Positions 4,349 through 40,183 of a stretch of DNA of 53,681 nucleotides are shown in pieces; position 1 is the stretch's first letter, and each line of letters opens with the position of its first letter. Source of the stretch: an uncultured Chryseobacterium sp. (GTDB lineage Bacteria > Bacteroidota > Bacteroidia > Flavobacteriales > Weeksellaceae); NCBI GenBank assembly GCA_913778085.1, contig CAJYXJ010000029.1, positions 1 through 53,681 of the forward strand. The letters run 5' to 3'. The translations under genes and the position numbers were made by a program. The notes under the pieces were generated by a model. The model worked only from the letters and a program-made list of their open reading frames with translations, did not search any database and had not been told where the DNA came from.

Positions 4349-4351
4349 TGA

Positions 4352-21689: not shown

Positions 21690-21866
21690 ATGAAACCACA
21701 CCTTATCGTTTTCGGGATTTTAATTGCCGGATTTATTGCTTACAACTTATTTCTCCAGGCAGCGGACGAAAGAACGAATACGGCCGTCAACATCATTTAC
21801 GCCAGTGTGCTTTTTGCCTACATTTCATTTATGGCCTACTCGCTCCTCAGAAAAATGAAGAAATAA
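21690..21866 (+). CDS. Small two-helix membrane protein
   Basis: 58 residues, MKPHLIVFGILIAGFIAY at the start and KMKK at the end. Two hydrophobic stretches (about 5-22 and 34-53) flank a charged turn (ADERTNTA). The family is not recognised. It starts 40 bases after the GNAT-like gene, and nuoA follows 121 bases later with its own promoter-like box. The frame is open, begins with ATG, and codon use resembles the neighbours, so I take it as a real small gene. Confidence 0.6.
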   Translation: MKPHLIVFGILIAGFIAYNLFLQAADERTNTAVNIIYASVLFAYISFMAYSLLRKMKK

Positions 21867-21956
21867 ACGTTATTTTTACTGATTCTAAATTATACGTTTC
21901 ATCCATTTTCAAGCCACTTTTAACCTCATAAATTTCATGCTTTCTTGTTTATTCGC

Positions 21957-21964
21957 TAAATTTG
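21957..21964 (+). promoter_or_regulatory. Predicted -7 element of the nuo operon
   Basis: TAAATTTG matches TAnnTTTG and lies 23 bases upstream of the nuoA ATG. At 20 bases further upstream is TTTC (21933-21936), a weak -33 match. No other full match was noticed in front of the later nuo genes, so transcription of nuoA-N and of the inserted genes may start here. Confidence 0.5.
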
Positions 21965-21987
21965 CAAATTGAGATAATAATGCAAAA

Positions 21988-22359
21988 ATGAATTTACCTG
22001 AAAGTTATATTCCAATCCTTTTACAGGCAGGTGTTGCGATAGGTTTCGTAGCCATTTCTTTGCTTGGAGCGCATTTTTTAGGCCCAAAACAGAAAAAAGG
22101 AAATTCTGTGAAGAACCAGAGCTGGGAATGTGGAGTCCCGGTAGAAGGAAATGCAAGAACACCGTTTTCCATCAAATATTTCTTAACTGCGGTACTGTTC
22201 GTACTATTCGATATTGAAATCGTGTTTTTCTATCCGTATGCCGTTAACTTCAGAGAGTTCGGTATGGAAGGCTTCCTTGCGGTACTTACCTTTGTAGCAA
22301 TCTTTTTCATGGCATTTTTCTATGTCTGGAAAAGAGGGGCTTTGGATTGGGATAAGTAA
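21988..22359 (+). CDS. nuoA: NADH-quinone oxidoreductase subunit A
   Basis: 123 residues with three membrane helices (about 8-30, 67-86, 92-112). NQSWECGVPVEGNARTPFSIKYFLTAVLF carries the conserved ECG loop and the FDIEIVFFYPYAV segment (Asp/Glu in helix 2). It is a membrane-arm subunit near the quinone site of complex I. It is the first gene of the nuo cluster. The 102-base gap to nuoB is AT-rich and holds no gene. Confidence 0.96.
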   Translation: MNLPESYIPILLQAGVAIGFVAISLLGAHFLGPKQKKGNSVKNQSWECGVPVEGNARTPFSIKYFLTAVLFVLFDIEIVFFYPYAVNFREFGMEGFLAVLTFVAIFFMAFFYVWKRGALDWDK

Positions 22360-22461
22360 AGGAATAGAAATTTTAAATGACTGTTTTAGATGATACAACT
22401 GAGGTTTAAAGCTAACATTAATACCCTTTTGCGATCTAAATTAAAATCTTAAATCAATCAA

Positions 22462-23022
22462 ATGTCAGATAACAAACCAGTAATAAGAACAGATGCACCG
22501 GCTCCGGAAGGATTTGAAGGAGAAGGCTTTTTCGCAACGAAACTGAGCAGTGTAATCGGGATGGCCAGAAAATTCTCTCTATGGCCGCTGCCTTTTGCAA
22601 CCTCTTGCTGCGGCATCGAGTTTATGGCAACCCTGAACCCAACGTATGACGCTTCAAGATTCGGGATGGAAAGAAACTCTTTCTCCCCGAGACAGGCAGA
22701 CTTACTGATGGTTTGCGGAACCATATCCAAGAAATTAGGACCGGTCCTAAAAGAAGTATACACCCAGATGGCTGAGCCGAAATGGGTAGTTGCCGTAGGT
22801 GCTTGCGCATGCAGCGGTGGTATTTTTGACACGTATTCCGTATTGCAGGGAATCGATAAAATAATTCCTGTGGATGTATACGTTCCGGGATGCCCTCCCC
22901 GACCTGAGCAGATCATCGAAGGGGTAATGCAGGTTCAGGCTCTTGCAGAAAGCGAAAGCATCAGAAGAAGAGATACGCCTGAATACCAGAAACTATTAGA
23001 TTCTTACAATATTAGCAACTAA
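22462..23022 (+). CDS. nuoB: NADH-quinone oxidoreductase subunit B
   Basis: 186 residues. Ligands of the terminal [4Fe-4S] cluster N2 are present: C49 and C50 in TSCCGIEFMA, C115 in GACACSGG, C144 in VPGCPPRPE. It passes electrons to the quinone. The length is a little shorter than in E. coli (220). It is followed five bases later by nuoC. Confidence 0.97.
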   Translation: MSDNKPVIRTDAPAPEGFEGEGFFATKLSSVIGMARKFSLWPLPFATSCCGIEFMATLNPTYDASRFGMERNSFSPRQADLLMVCGTISKKLGPVLKEVYTQMAEPKWVVAVGACACSGGIFDTYSVLQGIDKIIPVDVYVPGCPPRPEQIIEGVMQVQALAESESIRRRDTPEYQKLLDSYNISN

Positions 23023-23027
23023 CGGAA

Positions 23028-23522
23028 ATGACCAACGAATTTGTATTAGAAGCCATCACAAGAGAATTTCCGGAATCCGTTATCGCAAGTTCGGAACCTT
23101 ACGGGATGCTGACGGTTGAGGTAAAAAAAGAAGACCTGAAAAAAATCGTTCATTACCTGAAAGATTCTTCGCTGGAAATCAATTTCCTGACGGATGTATG
23201 CGGCATCCACTACCCGGAGTTTCCGGATAAGGAAATCGGAGTAGTTTACCACCTGCAAAATATGATGGCCAATTTCAGGCTGCGTCTGAAAATCTTTATG
23301 TCCAGAGAAAATGTAGAAGTGGATTCTTTAGTGGATCTGTATGCAGGAGCCAACTGGATGGAAAGGGAAACCTATGATTTCTTCGGAATTAAATTTAAAG
23401 GACACCCGGACCTCAGACCTATCCTGAATATGGAAGACCTGGGCTACCATCCGATGCTGAAGGAATATCGTCTGGAAGACGGGACAAGGACTGACAAGAA
23501 CGATGATATGTTCGGAAGATAA
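23028..23522 (+). CDS. nuoC: NADH-quinone oxidoreductase subunit C
   Basis: 164 residues, the 30-kDa subunit. VCGIHYPEF, ETYDFFGIKFKGHPDLRPILNMEDLGYHPMLKEY is the signature region (about 118-155). It is separate from NuoD, unlike the fused NuoCD of enterobacteria. The 62-base spacer to nuoD consists of iterated short words (see findings). Confidence 0.96.
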   Translation: MTNEFVLEAITREFPESVIASSEPYGMLTVEVKKEDLKKIVHYLKDSSLEINFLTDVCGIHYPEFPDKEIGVVYHLQNMMANFRLRLKIFMSRENVEVDSLVDLYAGANWMERETYDFFGIKFKGHPDLRPILNMEDLGYHPMLKEYRLEDGTRTDKNDDMFGR

Positions 23523-23584
23523 AAAAGCGAATGGCGAATGGCAGCTAGTCAATAGCCAGAAGCAAATAGCTAAAAGCAATCATT

Positions 23585-24808
23585 ATGAAAGATAACTCAT
23601 TATCTAATATACTTAACCAATACGAAAGTAAGGAACAGATTGACGGACAACTGTATACCCTCAATCTAGGACCTACCCACCCTGCTACCCACGGTATTTT
23701 TCAGAATATCTTAACGATGGACGGAGAAAGAATCCTTCACGCAGAGCAGACCGTGGGATATATCCACAGAGCATTTGAGAAAATTTCCGAAAGAAGGAAT
23801 TATTCTCAGATCACTACCCTTACCGACCGTATGAATTACTGTTCTGCGCCGATCAATAACCTGGGTTGGCATATGACGGTTGAAAAACTGATTGGGGTTG
23901 AAGTTCCGAAGCGCGTGGATTATATGCGTGTCATTTTAATGGAACTTGCCAGAATCGGTGACCACCTGATCTGCAACGGGGTAACCGGGATGGATTCAGG
24001 AGCGATTACAGGACTTACCTATATGTTCATCGAAAGAGAACGTATTTACGATATGTACGAGCAGATTTGCGGGGCAAGGATGACCACCAATATGGGAAGA
24101 ATCGGAGGTTTTGAAAGAGATTTCACTCCGAAGTTCCATGAGCTGATCAAGGATTTCCTTAAAACCTTCCCTCCTAGATTTAAAGAATTCTGTACGCTTC
24201 TTGAGAGAAACAGAATCTTTATGGACAGAACCATCGGTGCAGGAGGCATTTCTGCAGAAAGAGCATTAAGCTACGGGTTTACCGGTCCGAATTTACGTGC
24301 AACAGGGGTTGACTATGACGTGAGAGTCGCACAGCCTTATTCTTCTTACCAGGATTTCGACTTTATCATCCCTGTGGGGACATCCGGAGATACTTACGAC
24401 CGTTTCATGGTCCGTCAGCAGGAGATCTGGGAATCGATCAAAATTATCAAACAAGCATACGAAAATCTTCCTGAAGGACCGTTCCACGCGGACGTTCCGG
24501 ATTTCTACCTACCAGAAAAAGCAGATGTATACCAGAAAATGGAAGCATTGATCTACCACTTCAAAATCGTAATGGGAGAAACCGATGTACCGAAAGGTGA
24601 AGTTTACCATGCGGTAGAAGGAGGAAACGGAGAATTAGGATTCTATCTCGTAAGCGACGGCGGAAGAAGCCCTTACCGACTGCACTTCAGAAGACCATGC
24701 TTCATCTACTACCAGGCGTATCCTGAAATGATTACAGGTTCTGTAATTTCTGATGCGATTGTTACCATGTGTAGTATGAATATCATTGCGGGAGAATTAG
24801 ACGCATAA
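23585..24808 (+). CDS. nuoD: NADH-quinone oxidoreductase subunit D
   Basis: 407 residues, the 49-kDa subunit. LGPTHPATHGIF near the start (quinone-site His), YIHRAFEKISERRNY, DRMNYCSAPINNLGW, GARMTTNMGRIGGF and C-terminal SDGGRSPYRLHFRRPCF are all conserved. It forms the quinone cavity together with NuoB. The 101-base spacer to nuoE is low complexity. Confidence 0.97.
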   Translation: MKDNSLSNILNQYESKEQIDGQLYTLNLGPTHPATHGIFQNILTMDGERILHAEQTVGYIHRAFEKISERRNYSQITTLTDRMNYCSAPINNLGWHMTVEKLIGVEVPKRVDYMRVILMELARIGDHLICNGVTGMDSGAITGLTYMFIERERIYDMYEQICGARMTTNMGRIGGFERDFTPKFHELIKDFLKTFPPRFKEFCTLLERNRIFMDRTIGAGGISAERALSYGFTGPNLRATGVDYDVRVAQPYSSYQDFDFIIPVGTSGDTYDRFMVRQQEIWESIKIIKQAYENLPEGPFHADVPDFYLPEKADVYQKMEALIYHFKIVMGETDVPKGEVYHAVEGGNGELGFYLVSDGGRSPYRLHFRRPCFIYYQAYPEMITGSVISDAIVTMCSMNIIAGELDA

Positions 24809-24909
24809 AACGTTAAAAAGTACAGTGTATCATGTGCAGTGTACTTAACAATATAAAAAGATAATAATACTTTGTACTTTGTACAATGTACATTTTACAA
24901 CAAAATAAA

Positions 24910-25419
24910 ATGAGCGAAACAATAGCTTTTAAACCGGAAAGTTTAGCACAGGTGCACAAAATGATGGCAAGATATCCCGAGGGAAGACAGAAATCTGCCC
25001 TTATTCCTGTACTTCACCTGGCACAGAAAGAATTCGGAGGATGGTTGGATGTTCCGGTAATGGATTATGTGGCAGAACTTCTGAGCATCAAGCCGATCGA
25101 AGTCTATGAAGTGGCTACTTTCTATACCATGTTCAACATGAAGCCGGTAGGTAAATATGTGCTGGAAGTATGCCGAACGGGACCTTGTATGGTTTCGGGA
25201 AGCGAAAAGATCCTGAACCACATCAGAACCAAACTGAACATCAGGGATGGAGAGACGACGGAGGACGGAATGTTCACCCTAAAGCCGGCCGAATGTCTGG
25301 GTGCCTGCGGATATGCTCCGATGATGCAGCTGGGAAAATTCTTCCACGAAAATTTAACGATCGAAAAAGTAGACGAAATCCTGGATCTTTGCAGAGAAGG
25401 GCAGCTTGCTTTGGATTAA
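24910..25419 (+). CDS. nuoE: NADH-quinone oxidoreductase subunit E
   Basis: 169 residues from MSETIAF. An in-frame ATG 24 bases upstream exists (24886), but it lies inside the low-complexity spacer and the family normally starts near MSE, so I chose 24910. The [2Fe-2S] ligands are C88 and C93 (CRTGPC) and C129 and C133 (CLGAC). It is the 24-kDa subunit next to NuoF. Its normal partner gene nuoF is displaced by 1.7 kb of inserted DNA. Confidence 0.94.
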   Translation: MSETIAFKPESLAQVHKMMARYPEGRQKSALIPVLHLAQKEFGGWLDVPVMDYVAELLSIKPIEVYEVATFYTMFNMKPVGKYVLEVCRTGPCMVSGSEKILNHIRTKLNIRDGETTEDGMFTLKPAECLGACGYAPMMQLGKFFHENLTIEKVDEILDLCREGQLALD

Positions 25420-25428
25420 TTGAATAGT

Positions 25429-26463
25429 ATGGAAAACCAACATCTCACCTATTTTAAAGTAGAAAACTTCAAGAAATTTGACTCTCTTGAAGTGAAAGAT
25501 ATTGGGCAGTTTAATTTAATTGTTGGAGATAATAATGTAGGAAAAACATGTTTTTTGGAAGCGTTATTATTTGATAAAACTAAAACCTTTTTTGCAATTA
25601 ATATTTTAGATTCTTTACGAAGAAGAGGTCTCTTGGAATATAAAACTTCAGAGGACAATAACATTCTTATCACAAGTTCATTAAATGAGCGGAAAATAAA
25701 AAATAGAATTCTAAAAAATGCTAACGAAGGTGTTGCGATTTTTAGTTATATAGATGAAAAGGATCAAAATTTATTAAATAAAATTATTCTGAAATCAAGT
25801 TTTTATTCTTCAACCAGAATAGATAATAATTTAGATTTTTTTCACAACAACATATCCTTTGATGATATTAAAAATGTTTCTAAATATTTAAATATAACTC
25901 CATTTATCGGTTTTAATTCTTTATTTACTGAAGATATTTATTCTTTGTATAACAACATTAAAACCAAAAGCGATAAAGAGAATTTAATAAGAACTATACA
26001 AGTAATTGATAATAATATAATTGATGTTGAATTAAGACAGAAATTTGAGGATTTAAATTTAGTTTTTTTACTGAGCTTTAAAAATAAAGATGAATTTATT
26101 CCTGTTAATTATTTAGGAGATGGATTTAAAAGGATTTTTTATATTATTTTAAAAATATTGTCTCTTAAGGGAAAAAGGATAATGATTGATGAAATTGAAA
26201 CAGGTATTCATTATAGCAGACAAAAAGATTTTTGGTCGAACATTCTTAAAATTTGCAATGAATTAGATGTACAATTATTTGCTAGTACTCATTCTAAAGA
26301 GTGCATTCAAGCATTTTACGAAGCTAGCAAAGAATTAAATGAACAAAAAGATATAAGATTAATTAGCCTTCAAGAAGGAGAGCAAGATAGAATTTATAGT
26401 ACAACTTATAATTTTAAAAATATAGAAGCAGGACTATATTCCGACATAGAATTAAGAGCATAA
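25429..26463 (+). CDS. AAA/ABC-type ATPase, first inserted pair in nuo operon
   Basis: 344 residues from ATG (an in-frame TTG nine bases earlier touches the nuoE stop). OLD/RecF-like ATPase: start YFKVENFKKF, Walker A GDNNVGKT at 33-40, ABC signature-like YLGDGFKR, Walker B RIMIDEIETG at about 250-259, and switch histidine ASTHS at about 284-288. The middle (~60-210) is a helical insert, asparagine- and isoleucine-rich. The stop overlaps the ATG of the next gene (TAATG), so the two proteins are probably made together. A hand count of 25681-25740 gives 17 G/C in 60, against 36 in 60 in nuoF (27241-27300), a clear sign of foreign origin. ATPases of this kind drive OLD, Gabija, PARIS and AbiL defence systems. 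Assignment to one of them is not possible by eye. Confidence 0.85.
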   Translation: MENQHLTYFKVENFKKFDSLEVKDIGQFNLIVGDNNVGKTCFLEALLFDKTKTFFAINILDSLRRRGLLEYKTSEDNNILITSSLNERKIKNRILKNANEGVAIFSYIDEKDQNLLNKIILKSSFYSSTRIDNNLDFFHNNISFDDIKNVSKYLNITPFIGFNSLFTEDIYSLYNNIKTKSDKENLIRTIQVIDNNIIDVELRQKFEDLNLVFLLSFKNKDEFIPVNYLGDGFKRIFYIILKILSLKGKRIMIDEIETGIHYSRQKDFWSNILKICNELDVQLFASTHSKECIQAFYEASKELNEQKDIRLISLQEGEQDRIYSTTYNFKNIEAGLYSDIELRA

Positions 26464-27098
26464 TGAAAGAATATGGTCTAAATAAAATATTTGTAGAGGG
26501 AGAATCTGATAAAAAATTCATAGATTTTCTACTTTTGCAATTCTTTGGGATTAACAATCCTGAATTAGTTATAGATGTTAAGGGTAAAGACAAATTGAAA
26601 GATAATCCTTTATTGATTAACGAGAGAAGACGTTCTGAAAAAGCGAAAAATTTGATAATATTTGACACCGATTTTAATAATTCTGTTTCAAAAGGAGGGA
26701 GAGAAAAAAGGTTAGGTGAATATGAAGCAATAGGTCATGACTTAAATATTCAGCTATCAATATTTCTTTTACCATTTAACGATCAAAACGAAGGTCTCTT
26801 AGAAGATCTTTTAAATACTTGTTTGAAAGAAGAGTTTAATTTCTTTGATAACTGTTGGAATAAAATGATTGAGTGTGCTAAAGCATCAAATGTTGATAAA
26901 ATTAATTTACCTGCTCAAAAAGCATTTCTATTTTCTAAAATAGACTTATTTAAAGAACATAGAAGTGAAGAGTGGAATTACAAGTCTTCTTCAAAGTACC
27001 AATATGATGACAACGGTATTTGGGTATTTGAAAGAAATAAAAACGAAAATTTAGATAAACTTTTAAAGTTTATAGAAGATAATTTATTTAAAAATTAA
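26463..27098 (+). CDS. TOPRIM-like protein, partner of inserted ATPase
   Basis: 211 residues. The N-terminus KIFVEGESDKKFIDFLL with E12, followed by NLIIFDTDFNN with D68 and D70, is the E...DxD pattern of a TOPRIM fold, as in DUF3226-type and OLD nuclease domains. The rest is helical with NEGLLEDLLNTC and a C-terminal lysine-rich helix. It overlaps the ATPase stop by one base and ends one base before the nuoF ATG, so it is wedged seamlessly into the operon. The predicted role is a metal-dependent nuclease or nucleotide-binding effector controlled by the ATPase. This is inferred from family architecture and not shown. Confidence 0.75.
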   Translation: MKEYGLNKIFVEGESDKKFIDFLLLQFFGINNPELVIDVKGKDKLKDNPLLINERRRSEKAKNLIIFDTDFNNSVSKGGREKRLGEYEAIGHDLNIQLSIFLLPFNDQNEGLLEDLLNTCLKEEFNFFDNCWNKMIECAKASNVDKINLPAQKAFLFSKIDLFKEHRSEEWNYKSSSKYQYDDNGIWVFERNKNENLDKLLKFIEDNLFKN

Positions 27099-27099
27099 A

Positions 27100-28458
27100 A
27101 TGAGTAAAAAACTTTTACTTAAAGACGCACATATCGAAGGCATCCGCTACTTTGAGACCTACCGTAAACAAGGAGGTTACAGAGCTGCAGAGAAAGCCCT
27201 TAAAATGACACCGGATGAAATCCTGGAAGAAGTGAAAGCTTCTGGACTTCGCGGACGTGGAGGAGCCGGATTCCCCACTGGGATGAAATGGAGCTTCCTG
27301 GCAAAACCGGAAGGCGTTCCGAGACACCTGGTGGTGAATGCCGACGAATCGGAGCCGGGAACTTTCAAAGACCGGTATCTGATGGAATTCCTTCCCCACT
27401 TACTGATCGAAGGAATGCTGATTTCATCTTACTGTTTAGGTTCCAATACTTCTTACATCTATATCCGTGGAGAATATTCGTGGATTCCTGATATTCTTGA
27501 AGAAGCGATTGAAGAAGCCAAAGCAGCCGGATTTTTAGGTAAAAATATTTTAGGAAGAGGTTTCGATTGCGAAATTTACGTTCAGAGAGGTGGTGGAGCC
27601 TACATCTGTGGTGAAGAAACGGCACTGCTCGAATCCCTTGAAGGGAAAAGAGGAAACCCAAGACTGAAACCGCCGTTCCCGGCCGTAAAAGGACTTTGGG
27701 AAAGACCGACGGTTGTAAACAATGTTGAATCTATTGCTGCCATCGTTCCGATTATCGATATCACCGGAGCGGAATATGCCAAAATCGGTGTAGGAAGATC
27801 TACCGGTACGAAATTAATTTCTGCCTGCGGAAACATCAACAAGCCGGGCGTTTATGAAATCGACATGACGATTACCGTTGAAGAATTCATTTATTCGGAC
27901 GAATACTGTGGCGGAATTAAGGACGGAAAAAAACTGAAAGCCTGTATTCCGGGCGGAAGCTCCGTTCCGATCGTTCCTGCCAATTTATTATTGAAAACCG
28001 TAAACGGCGAACCTAGATATATGAACTACGAATCTTTGGCCGACGGTGGTTTTGCTACCGGAACCATGATGGGTTCAGGAGGGTTCATCGTGCTGGATGA
28101 AGACCAGTGCGTGGTGGAACATACCATGACCCTGGCAAGATTCTACAACCACGAAAGCTGTGGACAATGCACCCCTTGCCGTGAAGGTACGGGATGGATG
28201 TACAAGATTCTTAAGAAAATCGAGAACGGAGAAGGAAAAATGGAAGATATCGATCTGCTTTGGGACATCCAGAGAAAGATCGAAGGAAACACCATCTGCC
28301 CGTTGGGTGATGCCGCGGCATGGCCGGTGGCAGCTGCAATCCGTCACTTCAGAGACGAGTTTGAATGGCACGTGAAAAATCCTGAGTTGTGTAAAACCCA
28401 GAATTACGGACTGGCCCATTATGCAGATCCAATCCCTGTGGTTGAAAACAATGCTTAA
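27100..28458 (+). CDS. nuoF: NADH-quinone oxidoreductase subunit F
   Basis: 452 residues, the 51-kDa subunit that oxidises NADH. GLRGRGGAGFPTGMKW (FMN/NADH-binding), NADESEPGTFKDR, YICGEETALLESLEGKRGNPR, and the N3 [4Fe-4S] ligands C354, C357 and C360 (SCGQCTPC) with C400 (NTICPLG). The ATG follows the inserted TOPRIM gene by one base. GC and codon use return at once to those of the other nuo genes. Confidence 0.97.
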   Translation: MSKKLLLKDAHIEGIRYFETYRKQGGYRAAEKALKMTPDEILEEVKASGLRGRGGAGFPTGMKWSFLAKPEGVPRHLVVNADESEPGTFKDRYLMEFLPHLLIEGMLISSYCLGSNTSYIYIRGEYSWIPDILEEAIEEAKAAGFLGKNILGRGFDCEIYVQRGGGAYICGEETALLESLEGKRGNPRLKPPFPAVKGLWERPTVVNNVESIAAIVPIIDITGAEYAKIGVGRSTGTKLISACGNINKPGVYEIDMTITVEEFIYSDEYCGGIKDGKKLKACIPGGSSVPIVPANLLLKTVNGEPRYMNYESLADGGFATGTMMGSGGFIVLDEDQCVVEHTMTLARFYNHESCGQCTPCREGTGWMYKILKKIENGEGKMEDIDLLWDIQRKIEGNTICPLGDAAAWPVAAAIRHFRDEFEWHVKNPELCKTQNYGLAHYADPIPVVENNA

Positions 28459-28459
28459 G

Positions 28460-29353
28460 ATGAAGAGTTTATTGGTTGCCGGATTAATGATGTCGGGGTT
28501 TTTTTTTGGACAGATTGAAAAAGATACGATAACAGAATCACGTCTTGAAGAAGTCGTTGATGCATTTCCCAGAGAAATTATTAATAATAAGGAAAAGCCT
28601 CTGCCGTTAAGCAAAAAAGGACAGATGTTCGCTTTCTTCGGATGGAACAGAGGGGCTTTCAGCAACTCGGATATCCATTTTACCGGAAACGGTTACGATT
28701 TTCAGCTGAATAATGTATCAGCGAGAGACAGGCCTACGAAATTGGGAATTGTATATATTGACCCTTCATGGTTCACCGTGGTTCAGTATAATTTCAGAGC
28801 AGGGTATTTTATTAAAGACAATTTAGCTTTGGTTTTAGGAATCGACCACATGAAATATGTGATGAACCAAAACCAGACCGTCGGTTTTTCAGGAACGATC
28901 TCCGATCCGAAATATGCAGCCATGGTACAGAACGGACAGGTGAATTTATCTGATGAGCAGTTCCTTACTTTTGAACATACGGATGGTCTCAATTATGAAA
29001 ATGTAGGCCTTGAAAAATATAAGAATCTTGTTCACAAGAAAAATATAGACCTGGTATGGTCTTACGGAGCCGGTCTCGGGTTCATGTTTCCGAAGAGCAA
29101 CGTCAAGCTTTTTGGTAATGAAAGAAGCGACCGTTTCCACGTAGCGGGAATGGGAACCGATCTGAGATCGAGCCTAAACCTGGTTTTCTGGAACCACTGG
29201 ATGATCCGGGCAGAAGCCAAAGCCGGGTACATCAACATGTGGGACATCAAAACCACGTTGAACAACAAACCGGATAAAGCCCGTCAGGATTTTGTTTTTG
29301 GACAGGTGCTGGCAGGAATAGGGTATACATTTAATACGAAAAAGTATAATTAA
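28460..29353 (+). CDS. Outer-membrane beta-barrel protein encoded within nuo operon
   Basis: 297 residues from the ATG one base after the nuoF stop. An ATG nine bases earlier overlaps nuoF, but MKSLLVAGLMMSGFFFGQ gives the cleaner signal peptide. The mature protein has alternating aromatic and polar strands (NGYDFQLNNVSARD, WFTVVQYNFRAGYFI, NLALVLGIDHMKYVM, FGQVLAGIGYTF at the C-terminus), typical of an OmpW/porin-like barrel of 8-10 strands. GC is like the nuo genes, so it seems native to the operon and not part of the inserted cassettes. Its role alongside complex I is unknown. Specific ligand residues are not recognised. Confidence 0.8.
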   Translation: MKSLLVAGLMMSGFFFGQIEKDTITESRLEEVVDAFPREIINNKEKPLPLSKKGQMFAFFGWNRGAFSNSDIHFTGNGYDFQLNNVSARDRPTKLGIVYIDPSWFTVVQYNFRAGYFIKDNLALVLGIDHMKYVMNQNQTVGFSGTISDPKYAAMVQNGQVNLSDEQFLTFEHTDGLNYENVGLEKYKNLVHKKNIDLVWSYGAGLGFMFPKSNVKLFGNERSDRFHVAGMGTDLRSSLNLVFWNHWMIRAEAKAGYINMWDIKTTLNNKPDKARQDFVFGQVLAGIGYTFNTKKYN

Positions 29354-29358
29354 ACAGA

Positions 29359-30360
29359 GTGAATCAACATATTCAGAATATTGAAATTTCCAATTTCAAA
29401 TCCATAAGGGATCTGAAAATAGACGGCTGCAAGAAGATAAATATTTTTGCGGGAAAGCCGAATGCCGGGAAAAGTAATATTTTGGAGGCTATAGGTAGTT
29501 ATCAAATTTTAAAAAATCAGAGTCATAAAAGAGCAATTGATTTAATAGATCTTTTAAAAGATTTTATTCGATTTGAAGATTTGCAAGATATTTTTTATGA
29601 AAATAACATTTTCGATAACATTTCAATAAAGATTAATCAAACTAGTTTAAGTTTTGATTATACTGATCTATTTGAAAATGATTTACATGAAATTAGCATT
29701 GAATCTCAAATAGAAAAAGAAGGAAAAGACCTAATAGATCACATTAAATATTCTGAACATATTAAGTATTATAAATTTAAGCTATCCAATCGTAATAAAA
29801 AGAATTATTTAAAATATTTAGATTATCCATTTGGAGAAAATATAGCTAATATTATTTCCCAATATTCTGAAATAAGAATTTTTGTTAATAAATTCTTAGC
29901 ATTTAATAAACTTAAACTGTTAATTGAAAAAAGTACGAATGATCTAAAAATATTTAAAGAATATGAGGATGGGACAGTATTTTCTCTTCCATACAACATG
30001 ATTGCAGATACTCTTCAAAGATTAATTTTTTATAAAACAGCAATCATGAGCAATCAGGATTCTGTTTTACTTTTTGAAGAACCTGAAGCGCATTGTTTTG
30101 AGCCCTACATATTAGAGTTTACCAATGAAATAAAATACAATGAAAATAATAACCAGTTTTTCATGGTTACTCAAAGTGACTTTATTATTCAAGAATTTAT
30201 AAGAGATGAGGACAGTAAGAAGAATACTCAGATTTATCTAGTAAATAATGTAGATGGAAAAACGGAAGTAAAAAAATTAGATGCTGAAAGGAATGATGAT
30301 GTTTATGACTATGGAATGAATGTATTTTTCAACTTCGACAACCTTTGGGAAAATAATTAA
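29359..30360 (+). CDS. AAA-type ATPase, second inserted pair in nuo operon
   Basis: 333 residues starting at GTG, five bases after the barrel gene. IQNIEISNFKSIRDL, Walker A GKPNAGKS at 32-39, helical insert, PYNMIADTLQRLIFYKTAI in the signature position, Walker B SVLLFEEPEAHCFEPYI, and MVTQSDF where THS is usual (His replaced by Gln). The overall layout is that of AAA_15/AAA_21 ATPases in abortive-infection modules. It differs from the first inserted ATPase in almost every motif (GKPNAGKS versus GDNNVGKT, EEPEAH versus DEIETG), so it is no recent duplicate. Very AT-rich: 11 G/C in the 60 bases at 29581-29640. The next gene starts two bases later. Confidence 0.83.
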   Translation: MNQHIQNIEISNFKSIRDLKIDGCKKINIFAGKPNAGKSNILEAIGSYQILKNQSHKRAIDLIDLLKDFIRFEDLQDIFYENNIFDNISIKINQTSLSFDYTDLFENDLHEISIESQIEKEGKDLIDHIKYSEHIKYYKFKLSNRNKKNYLKYLDYPFGENIANIISQYSEIRIFVNKFLAFNKLKLLIEKSTNDLKIFKEYEDGTVFSLPYNMIADTLQRLIFYKTAIMSNQDSVLLFEEPEAHCFEPYILEFTNEIKYNENNNQFFMVTQSDFIIQEFIRDEDSKKNTQIYLVNNVDGKTEVKKLDAERNDDVYDYGMNVFFNFDNLWENN

Positions 30361-30362
30361 TT

Positions 30363-30905
30363 ATGGAAAGGGTTATTGCTGTTGAATGTTTTGCAGATAA
30401 ATATTTTTTCGGAAAATTATTACAAAATGAGAAACGGATCCGTAAAGAAAAAAATAAAAATGAAGTCATTAAAGCATTTGAAAAAGTAAAAGGTGCATTT
30501 CTGATCGGAATTGTAGATGAAGATCGGAAAGAACTTTTGTTAGATCCAAATTTAAAAAGCTTTGAAAAAATAAAAGAAGGAAGAAGTTTCAAAATTTATA
30601 AGGATAAAACAAAATATCACTTTATTTTTGCACTTTGTCCTAAAGCGTTTGAAGATTGGATTTATCAGTTTTTAAAATGTCAAAATAAAGAATTGAGTGA
30701 ATTCGGTTATATCAATTTTGAATCATTCATGAAAGAAACGAAAAGCGAACAGATTGATAAGGAAATTAAGTATAAAAATCTGGTAAAACACGTCATTCAG
30801 ACGTATCCGGATTCTGATAATCACATTAAGGAATTTAAAATTCATATCGATTATCTCCTTACTGAAACCTATCAGTTTAATTTAGAGAAATTTAAAAATT
30901 TATAG
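30363..30905 (+). CDS. Small acidic-motif partner of second ATPase (TOPRIM-like?)
   Basis: 180 residues. The start RVIAVECFADKYFFGKLL carries E8, and FLIGIVDEDRKE carries a DxD pair at about 53-55. This is the E...DxD spacing of TOPRIM-like proteins such as those paired with AAA ATPases. PKAFEDWIYQFL lies in the middle. The family is not recognised with certainty. Two bases separate it from the ATPase and 28 from nuoG. It is AT-rich like its partner. The likely role is the effector of a two-gene module, by analogy with the first pair and with known ATPase/nuclease pairs. Confidence 0.65.
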   Translation: MERVIAVECFADKYFFGKLLQNEKRIRKEKNKNEVIKAFEKVKGAFLIGIVDEDRKELLLDPNLKSFEKIKEGRSFKIYKDKTKYHFIFALCPKAFEDWIYQFLKCQNKELSEFGYINFESFMKETKSEQIDKEIKYKNLVKHVIQTYPDSDNHIKEFKIHIDYLLTETYQFNLEKFKNL

Positions 30906-30933
30906 CTTACTTATTAAGCGAAAAGCATAGAAT

Positions 30934-31932
30934 ATGAGCGAAGAGGTTAAAAAATTTAAAATAACTATAGACGGACAGACCACCGAAGTTTTGCCTGGAA
31001 CTTCTATCCTGGAAGCTGCCAGACAGATCGGCGGAAAATCCGTACCTCCGGCAATGTGCTATTACAGCAAATTGGAAACCAGCGGAGGAAGATGCAGAAC
31101 TTGCTTAGTGGAAGTTTCCAAAGGATCTGAAGCAGATCCGCGTCCTATGCCGAAATTGGTGGCAAGCTGCAGAACCAATGTCATGGACGGGATGGAAGTG
31201 AAAAATCTTTCTTCCGAAAAGGCACAGGAAGGCAGAAAAGCCGTAACTGAGTTTTTACTCTTGAACCACCCGTTAGACTGCCCGATCTGTGACCAGGCGG
31301 GAGAATGCCACCTTCAGGATCTTGGCTATGAGCACGGCGTGGAAAACACCAGAACGGAATTCGAAAGAAATACCTATGATGCCGATGACTTAGGTCCTCA
31401 CATCAAACTGAATATGAACCGTTGCATCCTGTGTGCCAGATGCGTACTGGCTGCCAATCAGCTGACGGGCGAAAGAGAACACGGAATCCTTTTCAGAGGA
31501 GACCATGCTGAAATTTCGACCTATCTGAATAAAGCCCTGGACAATGACTTCATCGGAAATGTAATCGACGTTTGTCCGGTAGGTGCATTAACGGACAGAA
31601 CCGCACGTTTTGCGAGCAGAGTATGGTTTACCAAGCCGATGAACGCTTCATGCAACTGCGGAAAATGTTCCGGAAAAGCAGTGGTTTGGATGAAAGGTGA
31701 CGAAATTGTAAGGGTAACGGCCCGAAAAGACCAGTGGGGTGAAGTAGAAGAATTCATCTGCGATACCTGCCGTTTTGAAAGAAAGAGCTTAAGCGACTGG
31801 AACATCGAAGGTCCTAGACATATCGACAGACATTCGGTGATTTCACTGAACCATTACGAGAAGCCTAAGGACGAATTGAGAGTCCTAGACAATCCGATGG
31901 CGAAAGAGATCAGCGAAAAAGACGAAAAATAA
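30934..31932 (+). CDS. nuoG: NADH-quinone oxidoreductase subunit G, short form
   Basis: 332 residues. All iron-sulfur ligands of the N-terminal part are present: [2Fe-2S] N1b C42, C54, C57, C79; N5 H112, C116, C119, C125; N4 C164, C167, C170, C214. A Mo-Fe4S4-like segment follows with C240, C242, C245, C276 and C279. The protein then ends, so the ~500-residue molybdopterin-like domain of E. coli NuoG is missing. To my knowledge the short form is usual in Flavobacteriia. The reading frame ends cleanly with acidic, lysine-rich residues and no decayed downstream frame, so it is not a truncation by mutation. Confidence 0.95.
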   Translation: MSEEVKKFKITIDGQTTEVLPGTSILEAARQIGGKSVPPAMCYYSKLETSGGRCRTCLVEVSKGSEADPRPMPKLVASCRTNVMDGMEVKNLSSEKAQEGRKAVTEFLLLNHPLDCPICDQAGECHLQDLGYEHGVENTRTEFERNTYDADDLGPHIKLNMNRCILCARCVLAANQLTGEREHGILFRGDHAEISTYLNKALDNDFIGNVIDVCPVGALTDRTARFASRVWFTKPMNASCNCGKCSGKAVVWMKGDEIVRVTARKDQWGEVEEFICDTCRFERKSLSDWNIEGPRHIDRHSVISLNHYEKPKDELRVLDNPMAKEISEKDEK

Positions 31933-32099
31933 AAAAGTTGGATGCTGGAAGAAGGAAGCTGGAAGTTTAAAATTTATCCTTCGCTTTCAACATCAGCCAT
32001 TTAAAAATATAAAAAATTGGTAATGTGATGATGAGTTGATGCCACGATGTACTGAACATCCGGCTTCCGGCTCTCATCTTCAAAACATTTAAATAAAAA

Positions 32100-33164
32100 A
32101 TGGATTTAATTACATTTAAACTTATACTTGTATTAGCACTTTTCCTGCTTTCGCTGACGATTGCAGCCTACTCTACCTGGGCGGAAAGAAAAGTAGCGTC
32201 TATTATGCAGGACAGGATCGGGCCGAACAGAGCAGGACCTTTCGGGTTGCTGCAGCCTCTTGCGGATGGTGGAAAGTTTTTCTTTAAAGAAGACTTTACG
32301 CCTGCCAATGCGGAAAAATTCCTTTTCGTATTGGGTCCGGCATTAGTGATGTTTATTTCATTGATTACCGGAGCAGTTATTCCTTGGGGTAAAAGTTTAA
32401 ATATCGCCGGTACTTCTTACGATCTTCAGGTGGCTAACATCGACGTGGGAGTTCTTTTCATTATCGGAATGGCTTCTATCGGGGTTTACGGGATTATGAT
32501 CGGAGGCTGGGCTTCCAACAACAAATATTCATTACTTGGGGCCATCCGTGCTTCTTCACAGATGATCTCCTATGAACTGGCGATGGGATTGGCTTTGCTT
32601 TCCATCATTATGATGACGGGAAGTCTTGATCTTAAAGAGATTACGGCCAGCCAGACCAACGGAAAATTGTGGGGCTTTATTCCATGGGTTTCCGGACTGA
32701 ACTGGAATATCTTTTATCAGCCGATCGCTTTCCTTGTTTTCTTCGTTGCTGCTTTGGCAGAAACCAACAGACACCCTTTCGATTTACCTGAGTGTGAATC
32801 CGAACTGGTAACCGGATATTCTACGGAATATTCTTCAATGAAATTAGGATTGTACATGTTCGGTGAATATGTGAATATGTTTATCTCCAATGCTTTCATG
32901 GTCGTTCTTTTCTTCGGAGGATACAATTATCCGGGAATTGAATGGGTAACACAGCACTGGGGTGAAAATACCGCAGGAATTTTAAGTGTTGTGGCATTTT
33001 TAATCAAGACGGTAATCGGAATCCTGATCTTCATGTGGATCAGATGGACGCTGCCGAGATTCAGATACGATCAGTTAATGCACCTAGGATGGAAAACGCT
33101 GATCCCGATGGCATTGGTGAATTTATTAATTACAGGAGCCGTAATCTTAGCTTTTGCCAATTAA
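32100..33164 (+). CDS. nuoH: NADH-quinone oxidoreductase subunit H
   Basis: 354 residues with eight membrane helices. ERKVASIMQDRIGPNRAGPFGLLQPLADGGKFFFKED is the conserved first loop (split: ERKVASIMQDRIGPN, GPFGLLQPLADGGK), and AETNRHPFDLPECESELVTGY is the quinone-site loop. It joins the peripheral and membrane arms. It is preceded by a 167-base spacer made of iterated words and followed by a related 111-base spacer. Confidence 0.97.
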   Translation: MDLITFKLILVLALFLLSLTIAAYSTWAERKVASIMQDRIGPNRAGPFGLLQPLADGGKFFFKEDFTPANAEKFLFVLGPALVMFISLITGAVIPWGKSLNIAGTSYDLQVANIDVGVLFIIGMASIGVYGIMIGGWASNNKYSLLGAIRASSQMISYELAMGLALLSIIMMTGSLDLKEITASQTNGKLWGFIPWVSGLNWNIFYQPIAFLVFFVAALAETNRHPFDLPECESELVTGYSTEYSSMKLGLYMFGEYVNMFISNAFMVVLFFGGYNYPGIEWVTQHWGENTAGILSVVAFLIKTVIGILIFMWIRWTLPRFRYDQLMHLGWKTLIPMALVNLLITGAVILAFAN

Positions 33165-33275
33165 TCATCTGAAATAAATTAATTTGAAAATTTGATAATG
33201 TGACGATGAGCTGCTGTGACGATGAAATTTCCATCTCTCCGCCTCCATCTTCTAACATTTAATAATAAAAAATAA

Positions 33276-33833
33276 ATGAAACTTACAAACAGATCAAAAG
33301 TTGTTTCCAATAAAGAAATGACCCTTGCTGAAAAAATCTACCTGCCTGCAATCTTTACGGGGATGGGGATTACCTTTAAGCATGCTGTAAGAACCGTACT
33401 GAAAGGAGCTCCCGCTGTATATGCGTATCCGGAAGTACAGAAGCCGAGAGCAGAAATCTGGAGAGGCCAGCACGTTTTGAAAAGAGACGAAGAAGGCAGA
33501 GAAAGATGTACCGCCTGCGGACTTTGTGCGGTGGCATGCCCTGCAGAGGCCATTACCATGACGGCTGCTGAAAGAACAAAAGAGGAAAAGCACCTGTACC
33601 GGGAAGAAAAATATGCATCGGTATATGAAATCAATATGCTAAGATGTATCTTCTGCGGGATGTGCGAAGAAGCCTGCCCGAAATCTGCGATCTATCTTAC
33701 CGACCGTTTGGTGGACGTGGAAACAAACAGAGGTTCTTTCATTTACGGAAAAGACAAATTGGTGGAAAAAATAAATGAAAGGATTGACATCACTGAAAGA
33801 CAGTCCGAGAAACAAAAAAATGCGGTAAAATAA
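33276..33833 (+). CDS. nuoI: NADH-quinone oxidoreductase subunit I
   Basis: 185 residues. Two [4Fe-4S] ferredoxin motifs: C78, C81, C84, C88 (CTACGLCAVACP) and C124, C127, C130, C134 (CIFCGMCEEACP), which hold clusters N6a and N6b. Its last base is also the first base of the nuoJ ATG (TAATG), so translation is coupled. Confidence 0.97.
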   Translation: MKLTNRSKVVSNKEMTLAEKIYLPAIFTGMGITFKHAVRTVLKGAPAVYAYPEVQKPRAEIWRGQHVLKRDEEGRERCTACGLCAVACPAEAITMTAAERTKEEKHLYREEKYASVYEINMLRCIFCGMCEEACPKSAIYLTDRLVDVETNRGSFIYGKDKLVEKINERIDITERQSEKQKNAVK

Positions 33834-34330
33834 TGGATCAGTTTTTATTTTTCTTGGTGGCGTTTTTAGCAGTGGCAAGTGCGGTTTATTTCGTATTTGC
33901 AAGAAATCCTCTCTATGCTATTTTGTCATTAATCGTTACAATGTTTTCGATTGCGGGTATGTACATTCTTCTGAATGCACAGTTCCTTGCGATTATCCAG
34001 ATTATAGTATATGCCGGGGCGATCATGGTATTGTTCCTGTACATCCTGATGATGCTCAACCTTAATAAGCAAGACGAAAGTAAGAAGAACAATACTTTAA
34101 AGTTTGCCGGTGTTTTTACGGCAGGTCTTCTGTTAATTGGGGTTTTGGGAGTATTCAGAGGCGTACAGCAGAATCATGTGGCTGTAGCAGATGCTGATGG
34201 AAGCATCGGGCTTACCAAAAATCTGGGCAGACTTTTGTTTAATGAATATGTTTTACCGTTTGAGCTTGCATCCATCCTTATTCTGGCAGGTATTGTAGGT
34301 GCGGTATTAATCGGTAAAAAAGATTTATAA
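33833..34330 (+). CDS. nuoJ: NADH-quinone oxidoreductase subunit J
   Basis: 165 residues, five membrane helices. NPLYAILSLIVTMFSIAGMYILLNAQFLAIIQIIVYAGAIMVLFLYILMMLN contains the conserved pi-bulge helix (VYAGAIMVLF). It forms part of the proton path near the quinone module. Four bases separate it from nuoK. Confidence 0.96.
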   Translation: MDQFLFFLVAFLAVASAVYFVFARNPLYAILSLIVTMFSIAGMYILLNAQFLAIIQIIVYAGAIMVLFLYILMMLNLNKQDESKKNNTLKFAGVFTAGLLLIGVLGVFRGVQQNHVAVADADGSIGLTKNLGRLLFNEYVLPFELASILILAGIVGAVLIGKKDL

Positions 34331-34334
34331 AATT

Positions 34335-34664
34335 ATGGGAGAAGTAAATACATTTATACAAAGTGTTCCTCTGAACTACTTCATCATCCTTTCGTCAGTA
34401 TTATTCTGTCTGGGAGTGTTGGGCGTATTGCTGAGAAAAAATGCTATTGTTATCTTGGGTTGTGTAGAGCTTATGCTGAATTCGGTAAACCTTTTACTCG
34501 CTGCATTTTCGGCGTACAAAGGAAACGGCGACGGACAACTTTTAGTGTTCTTCATTATGGTGGTGGCTGCTGCGGAAGTGGCAGTAGGTCTGGCAATTAT
34601 TGCTATGCTTTATAGAAATACCCGTTCTGTTGATGTAAGTATATTTAATAAATTAAGAGGATAA
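34335..34664 (+). CDS. nuoK: NADH-quinone oxidoreductase subunit K
   Basis: 109 residues, three membrane helices with conserved Glu residues in GCVELMLNSVNLLL (helix 2) and AAAEVAVGLAI (helix 3), both used in proton transfer. Two bases separate it from nuoL. Confidence 0.97.
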   Translation: MGEVNTFIQSVPLNYFIILSSVLFCLGVLGVLLRKNAIVILGCVELMLNSVNLLLAAFSAYKGNGDGQLLVFFIMVVAAAEVAVGLAIIAMLYRNTRSVDVSIFNKLRG

Positions 34665-34666
34665 GA

Positions 34667-36580
34667 ATGGAAAATTTAGTGTATGCAATAATACTTTTAC
34701 CACTTTTAGGTTTTCTTATTAACGGGTTATTCGGAAAAAATCTTCCAAAAATTGTTGTAGGAAGTTTGGCTACGGCAATGGTTTTTGCCTCTTTCTGCAT
34801 CGCAGTAAGTATTTTCCTGGGTTTCAATTCTGAAAGCCAGCCTGTAATTGTAAAAGCTTTTGAATGGTTCAGGGTAAATGGGATTCAGATCAATTTCGGA
34901 TTCCAGATCGATCAGCTGTCTTTAATTATGGTAATGATCATCACAGGAATCGGTTCTTTGATTCATCTCTACTCTATCGGATATATGAGCCACGATAAAG
35001 GTTTCTATAAGTTTTTCACTTATCTGAACTTATTTATCTTCTCCATGTTGCTTTTGGTAATGGGAAGCAACTACCTGATCCTGTTCATCGGATGGGAAGG
35101 CGTAGGATTGTGTTCTTATTTACTGATTGGGTTTTGGTATACCAACGAAGAATATGGTAAAGCAGCAAGAAAAGCATTCATCATGAACAGAATCGGTGAC
35201 CTGGCGTTGCTGATCGGGATTTTCATGCTGGCTTCTCAGACCAATGCTGTCGATTATCTTACCATTAGAGAAAATGCAGGAAAATTTGAACTGGACGGAA
35301 GCGTAATCATCTTTATTACGGCAAGTTTATTTATCGGTGCTACCGGTAAATCGGCTCAGGTTCCTCTATATACATGGCTTCCGGATGCGATGGCCGGCCC
35401 TACTCCTGTTTCTGCGTTAATTCACGCGGCGACGATGGTAACGGCGGGGATTTACCTGGTGGTTCGTTCAAACTTCTTATTTACCCTTGCACCGAGCGTT
35501 CAGGATATTATTTTATTCATCGGGTTTGCGACGGCTGCACTGGCAGGATTCTACGCCCTGCGTCAGAATGACATCAAAAAAGTACTGGCGTACTCTACCG
35601 TTTCCCAGCTTGGATTCATGTTCATTGCATTAGGGTTGGGTGCTTATACTACGGCGATGTTCCACGTCATGACGCACGCTTTCTTTAAAGCTTTATTGTT
35701 CTTAGGTGCAGGTTCTGTAATCCACGCGATGAGCAATGAACAGGATATGCGTTTCATGGGAGGATTGAAAAAATACATTCCTCTTACGCATGCTACTTTC
35801 CTGATCGGAACCTTAGCTATTTCAGGATTTCCTCTTTTATCGGGGATGATCTCAAAAGACGAAATTCTTGTAGCTGCTTTTTCTAAAAACCCGATCTATT
35901 GGGTCATGTTATTCATCTTGGCAGCAGTTACGGCAACTTATATGTTCAGACTATATTACCTGACGTTCCACGGAACATTCAGAGGTACGGAAGAACAGAA
36001 ACACCACCTGCACGAAAGCCCGTCGAATATGACGCTGCCGTTGATCGTGCTGGCCATCCTTTCCGTAGTCGGCGGTTTCATCAACCTTCCGCATTTTATC
36101 GGACACGGCCACTACGCCAAATTAATGGAATGGCTGAAGCCGGTGCTTACCGAGGAAAGCTACAACCAGATGGAAGCTACCCTTTCGGGAGTTCCTTTCG
36201 GTACTGAAATGATCCTTTTAGGCGCAACGGTTTTAATGTTCTTCTGTGTTTGGTTCCTTGTTAAAAATACATACGTCAACAAGAAAAAGCAGGCCTTGCC
36301 GGAAGAAATGTACACCGGATGGGAGAAGCTTTCTGCCAAGAAATTATATGTTGACGAACTTTACAATGCAATTGTTGTAAAAACTGTTGAAGGATTAGGA
36401 CGCGGAGGAAGAATGTTTGATAAAGGAATTCTTGACCGTTTTGTAGACTTCGTAGGGGACGGCGCTGAAGACAGCGGAAGAGCCATGAAGCGTATCCAGA
36501 ACGGAAATGTGGAGAACTATATTCTTATCATGTCTTTAGCGGTGGGAATTATATTAATTGTTAACTTTTTATTACAATAA
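34667..36580 (+). CDS. nuoL: NADH-quinone oxidoreductase subunit L
   Basis: 637 residues, 14-16 membrane helices, an antiporter-like proton pump. Conserved WEGVGLCSYLLIGFW (Glu), LPDAMAGPTPVSALIHAATMVTAG (Lys/His region), KKVLAYSTVSQLGFM. The C-terminal lateral helix is present (VDELYNAIVVKTVEGLGRG to the end). Two bases separate it from nuoM. Confidence 0.97.
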   Translation: MENLVYAIILLPLLGFLINGLFGKNLPKIVVGSLATAMVFASFCIAVSIFLGFNSESQPVIVKAFEWFRVNGIQINFGFQIDQLSLIMVMIITGIGSLIHLYSIGYMSHDKGFYKFFTYLNLFIFSMLLLVMGSNYLILFIGWEGVGLCSYLLIGFWYTNEEYGKAARKAFIMNRIGDLALLIGIFMLASQTNAVDYLTIRENAGKFELDGSVIIFITASLFIGATGKSAQVPLYTWLPDAMAGPTPVSALIHAATMVTAGIYLVVRSNFLFTLAPSVQDIILFIGFATAALAGFYALRQNDIKKVLAYSTVSQLGFMFIALGLGAYTTAMFHVMTHAFFKALLFLGAGSVIHAMSNEQDMRFMGGLKKYIPLTHATFLIGTLAISGFPLLSGMISKDEILVAAFSKNPIYWVMLFILAAVTATYMFRLYYLTFHGTFRGTEEQKHHLHESPSNMTLPLIVLAILSVVGGFINLPHFIGHGHYAKLMEWLKPVLTEESYNQMEATLSGVPFGTEMILLGATVLMFFCVWFLVKNTYVNKKKQALPEEMYTGWEKLSAKKLYVDELYNAIVVKTVEGLGRGGRMFDKGILDRFVDFVGDGAEDSGRAMKRIQNGNVENYILIMSLAVGIILIVNFLLQ

Positions 36581-36582
36581 TA

Positions 36583-38076: not shown

Positions 38077-38092
38077 TTTGATATTTTAAAAA

Positions 38093-39478: not shown

Positions 39479-39498
39479 AAAGCCACAATTAAAATATT

Positions 39499-39535
39499 AA
39501 ACCACAACATCAATGTTGTGGTTTTTGTTTTTTAG
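39499..39535 (+). terminator. Terminator of the nuo operon
   Basis: Perfect 12-base inverted repeat AAACCACAACAT (39499-39510) / ATGTTGTGGTTT (39513-39524) with a two-base centre (so in practice an 11-bp stem with a 4-base loop), followed by a T-rich tract to about 39535. Confidence 0.88.
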
Positions 39536-39676
39536 CGCATGGGTTTATTAATTTCTTCTCAATTATTTTTATATCTTAAAACCAAGATTACAACGGTTTC
39601 TTATCCTGAAAATCTACCTGGTTTATCCTTTCAGACTTCTCGAGTGAATCAGGGAAAAATTTGAAACAGATAATTT

Positions 39677-40183
39677 ATGAAAGCACAGATCATTTCAGTC
39701 ATTTTCATTACCTTATTTACGACAGCGTGTAAAAAAGAAGTAACAGAGAAAAATATCAGCCTTCTATGCGATACTGTACATAGTAAGAATAAGGCAGCCC
39801 TACCTGATAATAATTTGGGAACCATACGGTTAATTAAAAAATCTGACAGCATTCAGAATAATGGCATTGATGAATGGTATGGATATTATGAAGGTCATTT
39901 TTTAAGATTAGAAGGCGAATCTGGAGATCCCCGGGGTTGGGCCCGTGTTACATTGAATATCCATAAAGATTCTGTAATTTTTGATATTTTCAGTTATGTG
40001 GAAAAGGAAACATTTAAATTAAAATTCATAAAATCAGATGATAAGACCATAGAGTTTAAAGCTGCACCTGACGAAAGTATACAGCTGATAAAAAAAGACA
40101 GACAAAACTATATTCTTAAAAGTAAATACATCGATAGCCGGAACGCAGAAAAAAACGAAGTAAAACTATCCAGAGAAGAATAA
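39677..40183 (+). CDS. Predicted lipoprotein
   Basis: 168 residues. The signal peptide MKAQIISVIFITLFTTAC ends in a lipobox with Cys18, followed by KKEVTEKN. The mature protein is polar with a 'GIDEWYGYYEGHFLRLEGE' centre (split: GIDEWYGYYEG, HFLRLEGE) and beta-strand patterns. The family is not recognised. It stands between the nuo terminator and the GAF protein. Forty bases separate it from the next gene, with TACCTTTA in the gap, so they may be separate transcripts. Confidence 0.75.
   Translation: MKAQIISVIFITLFTTACKKEVTEKNISLLCDTVHSKNKAALPDNNLGTIRLIKKSDSIQNNGIDEWYGYYEGHFLRLEGESGDPRGWARVTLNIHKDSVIFDIFSYVEKETFKLKFIKSDDKTIEFKAAPDESIQLIKKDRQNYILKSKYIDSRNAEKNEVKLSREE

Follow-up and report, generated by a model that had tools for sequence, protein, structure and literature searches.

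Two ATPase-effector gene pairs of the Chryseobacterium complex I operon, each at a fixed joint: putative immune modules that appear to exchange parts

The nuo operon for respiratory complex I of an uncultured Chryseobacterium sp. carries two cassettes of two genes each, which we call A1-B1 and A2-B2. The operon lies on the + strand of a contig (CAJYXJ010000029.1) whose 53,681 analysed nucleotides are referred to here as the window; the window belongs to a genome of 82 contigs (G000), and the nearest named relatives of its NuoE are from Chryseobacterium. A1-B1 sits between nuoE and nuoF, A2-B2 between a gene designated X and nuoG, and each combines an ABC-type ATPase with a TOPRIM-like effector candidate. 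On balance, we favour the reading that these are operon-expressed immune modules resembling PARIS and AbiL, which form recombining series of alleles at two fixed joints of the nuo operon. The resemblance of the proteins to known families suggests an anti-phage role, and the pairs would be expressed with nuo; their location, patchy distribution, scarless fit and chimerism are observed directly. The genes concerned are the following:

24886..25419, + strand: nuoE, left border of cassette 1 (PF01257 1.5e-55, TIGR01958 1.1e-51)
25429..26463, + strand: A1, AAA_15/AAA_21 ABC-type ATPase, PDC-M38A/AbiLi-like (AAA_15 6.7e-20)
26463..27098, + strand: B1, DUF3226 protein, TOPRIM-like effector candidate
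27100..28458, + strand: nuoF, right border of cassette 1 (TIGR01959 2.6e-173)
28421..29353, + strand: X, unnamed ancestral gene of the nuoF-nuoG interval; its start codon is uncertain, and it overlaps nuoF if it begins at the ATG at 28421
29359..30360, + strand: A2, GTG start, ABC-type ATPase of a second AAA_15 family (AAA_15 6.6e-8)
30363..30905, + strand: B2, TOPRIM-like effector candidate without a Pfam family
30934..31932, + strand: nuoG, short form of 332 amino acids (aa), right border of cassette 2 (PF22117/PF10588/PF13510)
39499..39524, + strand: terminator-like hairpin downstream of the last nuo gene

The original prediction, made from the sequence of the window, described an AT-rich two-gene cassette separating nuoE from nuoF and a second one preceding nuoG, both in operon orientation and either separated from their neighbours by 1-28 bases or overlapping them at codons. 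This layout holds. The guanine plus cytosine (GC) content is 25.3% in A1-B1 and 26.2% in A2-B2, versus 46.8% in nuoF. A1 starts 9 bp after nuoE, overlaps B1 by 1 bp, and B1 ends 1 bp before nuoF; the corresponding spacings of the second cassette are 5 bp (X-A2), 2 bp (A2-B2) and 28 bp (B2-nuoG). The nuoF-nuoG interval also contains gene X.

Occupancy of the two joints was read directly in 80 named loci additional to the window (L005-L084; 79 titled Chryseobacterium and one Weeksellaceae metagenome-assembled genome) and in the carriers recovered by a genus-wide search of 174 genomes, the window's included (E<=1e-25, up to 12 candidates scored per genome). At the nuoE-nuoF joint, 77 of the 80 named loci have a gap of 15-127 bp and three have A1-B1; in the nuoF-nuoG interval, 77/80 have X alone and 3/80 have X together with A2-B2. 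Across the genus, in which nuoF is present in 173/174 genomes, A1 was found in four genomes and A2 in eight, invariably at nuoE-nuoF (4/4) and between X and nuoG (8/8), respectively. Each carrier gave a single match at these cut-offs, at its own joint, and the two groups of carriers overlap solely in the window. Since most relatives have empty sites, the pairs are accessory modules rather than ancestral parts of the operon, which supports this side of the original prediction.

Gene X, in contrast to A2-B2, is ancestral in this group. It has a tblastn match in all 80 named loci, which leaves A2-B2 as the only variable part of the nuoF-nuoG interval, and also in L119 and L120; there was no match in L121 and L122, nor any Pfam or NCBIfam match for X. 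Furthermore, nuoG (332 aa) aligns over its full length with its relatives and was thus not shortened by the insert.

Two ideas in the original prediction find no support here. One is that the operon serves as a generic landing site for foreign cassettes: among the 80 named loci the nuoE-nuoF joint only ever holds A1-B1 and the X-nuoG joint only ever A2-B2, no relative of five query ATPases was found at any other position in these nuo loci, and the A1-B1 joint is the same in six genera. Nor does AT-richness mark the cassettes as foreign cargo. GC is 22-26% in every one of the 16 cassettes measured, and a value so constant gives no evidence of recent foreign origin. In three of the 80 loci (L075, L046 and L081) the nuoH-nuoI joint contains an open reading frame (ORF) for a 23S rRNA-intervening-sequence protein; it is a PF05635 match (4.2e-28) at 10835-11305 in L075, and L046 and L081 carry it with a broken frame.

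The address of A1-B1 is retained beyond the genus. The genome sets searched (174 of the genus, 321 of the family, 326 of the order and 299 of another family) overlap one another. A family-wide search with the PDC-M38A model (E<=1e-15, five candidates scored per genome) returned 12 matches, eight of them at nuoE-nuoF. These eight come from five genera and comprise G218, G176, G184 and G192 besides the four carriers found in the genus (in G184 the contig ends inside A1, so that nuoE is not seen). An A1 profile run against the order (E<=1e-30) gave five matches, four that had been found before and G445, a member of another family in which the order nuoE-A1-B1-nuoF is found again; among the 299 genomes of that family (E<=1e-20) only G445 and G752 matched. 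In all, A1-B1 occupies the same joint in six genera of two families. The A2 profile, run against the 321 family genomes, recovered the same eight carriers only. Among plasmid records with a match, 132/149 come from Klebsiella; one (L134, NZ_CP070094.1) is a 4-kb ColRNAI plasmid, typed non-mobilizable, with a distant A1 relative (24% identity).

The two halves of a cassette do not always share one history. In four-row trees comprising the window, L028 (C. taeanense), L081 (Chryseobacterium sp. PMSZPI) and L119, A1 groups the window with L028, both for residues 46-200 (100/100; alternatives at p-AU, the P value of the approximately unbiased test, of 8e-6) and for residues 201-344 (100/99; alternatives 0.004 and 0.0007), whereas B1 groups the window with L081 (100/100; alternatives below 1e-50). 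Residues 1-45 of A1, nuoD and nuoE gave no resolved grouping in such trees; nuoL groups the window with L028 (97/97), and nuoF groups L028 with L081 (85/94, not starred). Synonymous divergence (dS) follows the same pattern. Between the window and L028 it is 0.29 in A1 versus 1.13 in B1 and 0.98-1.47 in nuoD/E/F/G; between the window and L081 it is 0.34 in B1 versus 1.28 in A1 and 0.86-1.58 in nuo. In the close relatives L116 and L117, dS is 0.68 for A2 versus 0.14-0.24 for B2, X and nuo, so the ATPase was swapped in place. The ratio of nonsynonymous to synonymous divergence (dN/dS, gene averages) was 0.05-0.47 in all cassette comparisons made. The trees of putative sensor and putative effector thus conflict strongly, and synonymous divergence shows, at the level of sequence, an exchange of parts between species.

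The cassettes fit their joints without scars. Cassette 2 extends from its GTG start to a stop codon, between the stop codon of X and the nuoG leader, and cassette 1 likewise runs from start codon to stop codon in place of the short nuoE-nuoF spacer. The nuo DNA of the filled C. mucoviscidosis locus (L023) is 96-99% identical to that of the empty C. gambrini locus (L024), and a shortened form of the leader is common to most cassette-bearing loci. On a quick tree of six nuo genes (88 rows), the eight X-G carriers need eight changes. The seven E-F carriers need five, which is not a fair count of gains at that joint, since the outgroup genera contribute no rows other than carriers.

Those cassette genes that were read whole are intact, and their proteins resemble components of defence systems. 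Among PADLOC models A1 matches PDC-M38A (6.3e-50) and AbiLi (1.2e-44), and A2 matches HEC-01A (1.2e-19) and PDC-M38A (1.1e-17). Both ATPases have conserved ends around a divergent middle, hypervariable in A1 at about residues 50-190: the mean share of the majority residue per 25 aa goes from 98/89 to 55-60 and back to 88-96 in A1 (four Chryseobacterium rows); the corresponding values in A2 (eight rows) are 94/85, 45-52 and 86-94. In the partners, four acidic residues are invariant, E12, D16, D68 and D70 of B1 (7/7 rows) and E8, D12, D52 and D54 of B2 (8/8 rows). The best rows of VIA-align for B1 and B2 are OLD TOPRIM regions, and those for B2 additionally list PARIS 8ux9, Gabija and retron Eco2. 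Both partners retain TOPRIM-like acidic residues and are candidate nucleases.

Whether the pairs have promoters of their own bears on their expression. The original prediction saw none, and the scans do not contradict it. Over positions 21700-39700 we counted 41 sigma-70-like sites compared with 45.8 in shuffles, so such sites are not above expectation, but the test is a weak one and ten of the sites, all + strand, fall within the AT-rich cassettes. A two-box motif of the Bacteroidota type occurs in neither cassette nor anywhere else in the operon; since it is also missing upstream of nuoA, the scan has no positive control and no power here. Its second box by itself occurs at 21957, upstream of nuoA, and within the cassettes at 26530, 29442 and 30623. 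There are no + strand terminator-like sites between about 23,931 and 32,690, hence none in either cassette. Absent terminators and unenriched promoter-like sites would be compatible with read-through from nuo, and no more.

The cassettes can be compared with several known systems. PARIS combines an ATPase (AriA) with a TOPRIM protein (AriB); AriA is the best model for neither A1, where it ranks below PDC-M38A and AbiLi, nor A2, where it ranks below HEC-01A, PDC-M38A and AbiLi, and the partners are a DUF3226 protein (B1) or unnamed (B2). PARIS has been proposed as Class 4 of the OLD proteins (PMC10568477) and was reported from hotspots of phages and satellites (PMC9122126), whereas the cassettes have a core-operon address. 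In OLD Classes 1-3 ATPase and TOPRIM share one polypeptide, while each nuo cassette consists of two ORFs; in Gabija (Class 2) the UvrD-like helicase GajB lies beside the ATPase, whereas the neighbours of A1 and A2 are nuo genes, X and B1 or B2. With respect to PDC-M38, A1 matches PDC-M38A and A2 is nearer HEC-01A, and B1 matches PDC-M38B only weakly and B2 not at all. With respect to AbiL, A1 is AbiLi-like but B1 is only weakly AbiLii-like and A2-B2 is farther away; the partner protein of L120 matches AbiLii at 1.8e-8, and other partners match PDC-M38B weakly. The cassettes also recall the core defence hotspots (cDHS) of Pseudomonas aeruginosa in having variable immune genes between fixed core genes. 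According to PMC10250203, cDHS1 has a median length of 26 kb (range 1-224 kb) and accommodates no fewer than 31 immune systems, and the authors of that study consider that recombination in conserved flanks may bring about transfer. Each nuo joint, by comparison, lies within an operon and is occupied by one two-gene family of about 1.5-1.8 kb.

Septu, also an ATPase-nuclease pair although its effector is an HNH nuclease and not TOPRIM-like, is found in the same genome and is embedded between core genes like the nuo cassettes. An AAA_21 search of G000 gave at least 14 matches, A2 being among those not listed. Surroundings were read for five, which are A1, three further ATPase pairs and one more gene that we take to be RecF-like; the remaining nine are mostly partial. 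The Septu pair (L154 6508-8390, G000:C68; PtuA 1.3e-185, PtuB 1.2e-27, HNH 0.0013 at 19.2 bits, slightly below the cut-off of 21.4) is flanked by DUF1599 and MauE/DoxX genes, its junctions being one gap of 6 bp and two overlaps of 4 bp each; the gene downstream of this stretch is presumably tpiA-like. The flanking genes are within 36 bp of each other in 15/17 relatives. G048 has the same Septu pair at the same joint, with a DNA identity of 93% versus 87% for DoxX, and G218 has a different ORF there. A 128 aa ORF occupies this joint at L191 1089-1475. The second pair (L152 6211-8140, G000:C15), an AriA/PtuA-like ATPase with a 288 aa partner that has no Pfam match, begins 28 bp after nfu and overlaps the start of hemH by 8 bp. 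It is absent from the nfu-hemH joint of all 17 relatives, which instead have a gap of 65-275 bp (10/17) or another ORF, of 174-177 aa in six and of 151 aa in one. The 174-177 aa ORFs upstream of hemH are those of L163-L166, L168 and L171. As other species have small ORFs at these two joints, the joints accept different genes. The third pair, of type PDC-M31, lies where its contig (L153) ends.

Of five ATPase-effector pairs looked at in this genome, four are thus embedded between core genes (nuoE-nuoF, X-nuoG, nfu-hemH and DUF1599-DoxX). With the Septu pair fitting as seamlessly as the nuo cassettes and another pair before hemH, embedding in core operons is possibly general here. Tentatively, from a single genome and a comparison of two further loci in 17 relatives, core-operon joints may be a general and unrecognised niche in which promoterless ATPase-nuclease pairs exist as scarless presence/absence alleles, borrow expression and recombine sensor and effector at a fixed address, like an allelic specificity locus. 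We regard this wider proposal as possible, though short of probable.

Several observations weigh against our reading of the nuo cassettes as immune modules resident at fixed joints. More distant relatives have other addresses: the remaining four of the 12 PDC-M38A matches are ATPases of 641-709 aa located elsewhere than nuo, and the G752 match (1.3e-29) is likewise outside nuo. The effector side matches defence models poorly: B1 reaches PDC-M38B only at 2e-4 (a partial match) and AbiLii at 0.003, B2 has no PADLOC defence model (a single Cmr5 row at 0.017 was taken as chance), its relatives in L016 and L118 have no PADLOC match, and Foldseek alone returned nothing at E<=0.001 for the B1 or B2 model, the B1 model being poor. 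Exchange is not evident in every pair, as dS between the window and L115 is 2.07 for A2, above that of the flanks. Finally, for every X-G carrier the terminal 150 bp of X and the initial 150 bp of nuoG were compared with 86 other loci. On the X side the best match was a locus whose X-G joint is empty in 8/8 carriers (e.g. L023-L024 99.3%, L016-L066 98.0%, L117-L076 93.3%), and on the nuoG side this was so, ties included, in 7/8, the exception being L118, which best matched the carrier L078 (94.7%, next 94.0%). With flanks that best match empty loci, there is no donor-flank sign of insertion through nuo recombination.

Among other explanations, the least improbable, although we still think it unlikely, is that these are ordinary defence genes which entered each site once and descended with many losses, the operon not being special. 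A single old insertion would also explain why all carriers have one family at one joint. Against this, a remnant search found no cassette match in 160 empty gaps, and for some distant pairs cassette dS is well below flank dS. Moreover, the empty leader of L024 is identical to that of L025 and differs little from the leaders of L005, L007 and L009, which makes it likelier that L023 gained the cassette than that L024 and its relatives lost it. Such gains beside closely related empty species (L023/L024, L016/L063) would suit homing-type selfish elements, whose TOPRIM nuclease and ATPase cut the empty nuoE-nuoF or X-nuoG joint so that repair copies the cassette in, as would the single site per family in every carrier found and insertion from start codon to stop codon with no other cargo. 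Occupancy of only 4 and 8 of 174 genomes is low for a driver, however; no co-converted flank was seen, ATPase and partner assort independently, and a variable ATPase middle is more in keeping with a sensor than with a fixed target site, which makes homing improbable in our view. We give just as little credence to the pairs being accessory regulators or guards of complex I that act on its NADH-input module (NuoE/F/G) around nuoF. That two ATPase families both lie in the nuoEFG stretch, that related ATPases are lacking elsewhere in the named nuo loci and that the site is retained across two families would all fit, but most species that have this complex I lack the pairs, the ATPase middle is hypervariable, and other pairs of the same genome, one of them Septu, stand beside hemH and DoxX.

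If the cassettes are immune modules, they could work as follows. The variable middle domain of the ABC/OLD-type ATPase would probably recognise the invader, and the separate TOPRIM-type nuclease would probably be released or activated by the ATPase, as in PARIS. The modules have no evident promoter of their own and would be translated from the transcript of nuo. They would reside as allele series at the two complex I joints, where species may acquire them scarlessly, and two lineages with a pair may swap sensor part and effector by recombination inside the cassette.

Elsewhere in the window, two adjacent − strand ORFs (809-7969; 1179 and 1205 aa), which from their appearance may be RHS-type repeat proteins, lie in a stretch of lower GC.

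Defence genes are mostly sought in islands, prophages and hotspots, and pairs carried in housekeeping operons, if our reading is correct, could escape island-based searches. Their expression would be set by metabolism, and through the fixed address immunity would become an allelic locus, allowing sensor and effector halves to be compared from one species to the next. Close relatives that differ in having a pair, such as C. mucoviscidosis and C. gambrini, would provide a natural experiment, and species sharing one half only could reveal which part sets phage specificity.

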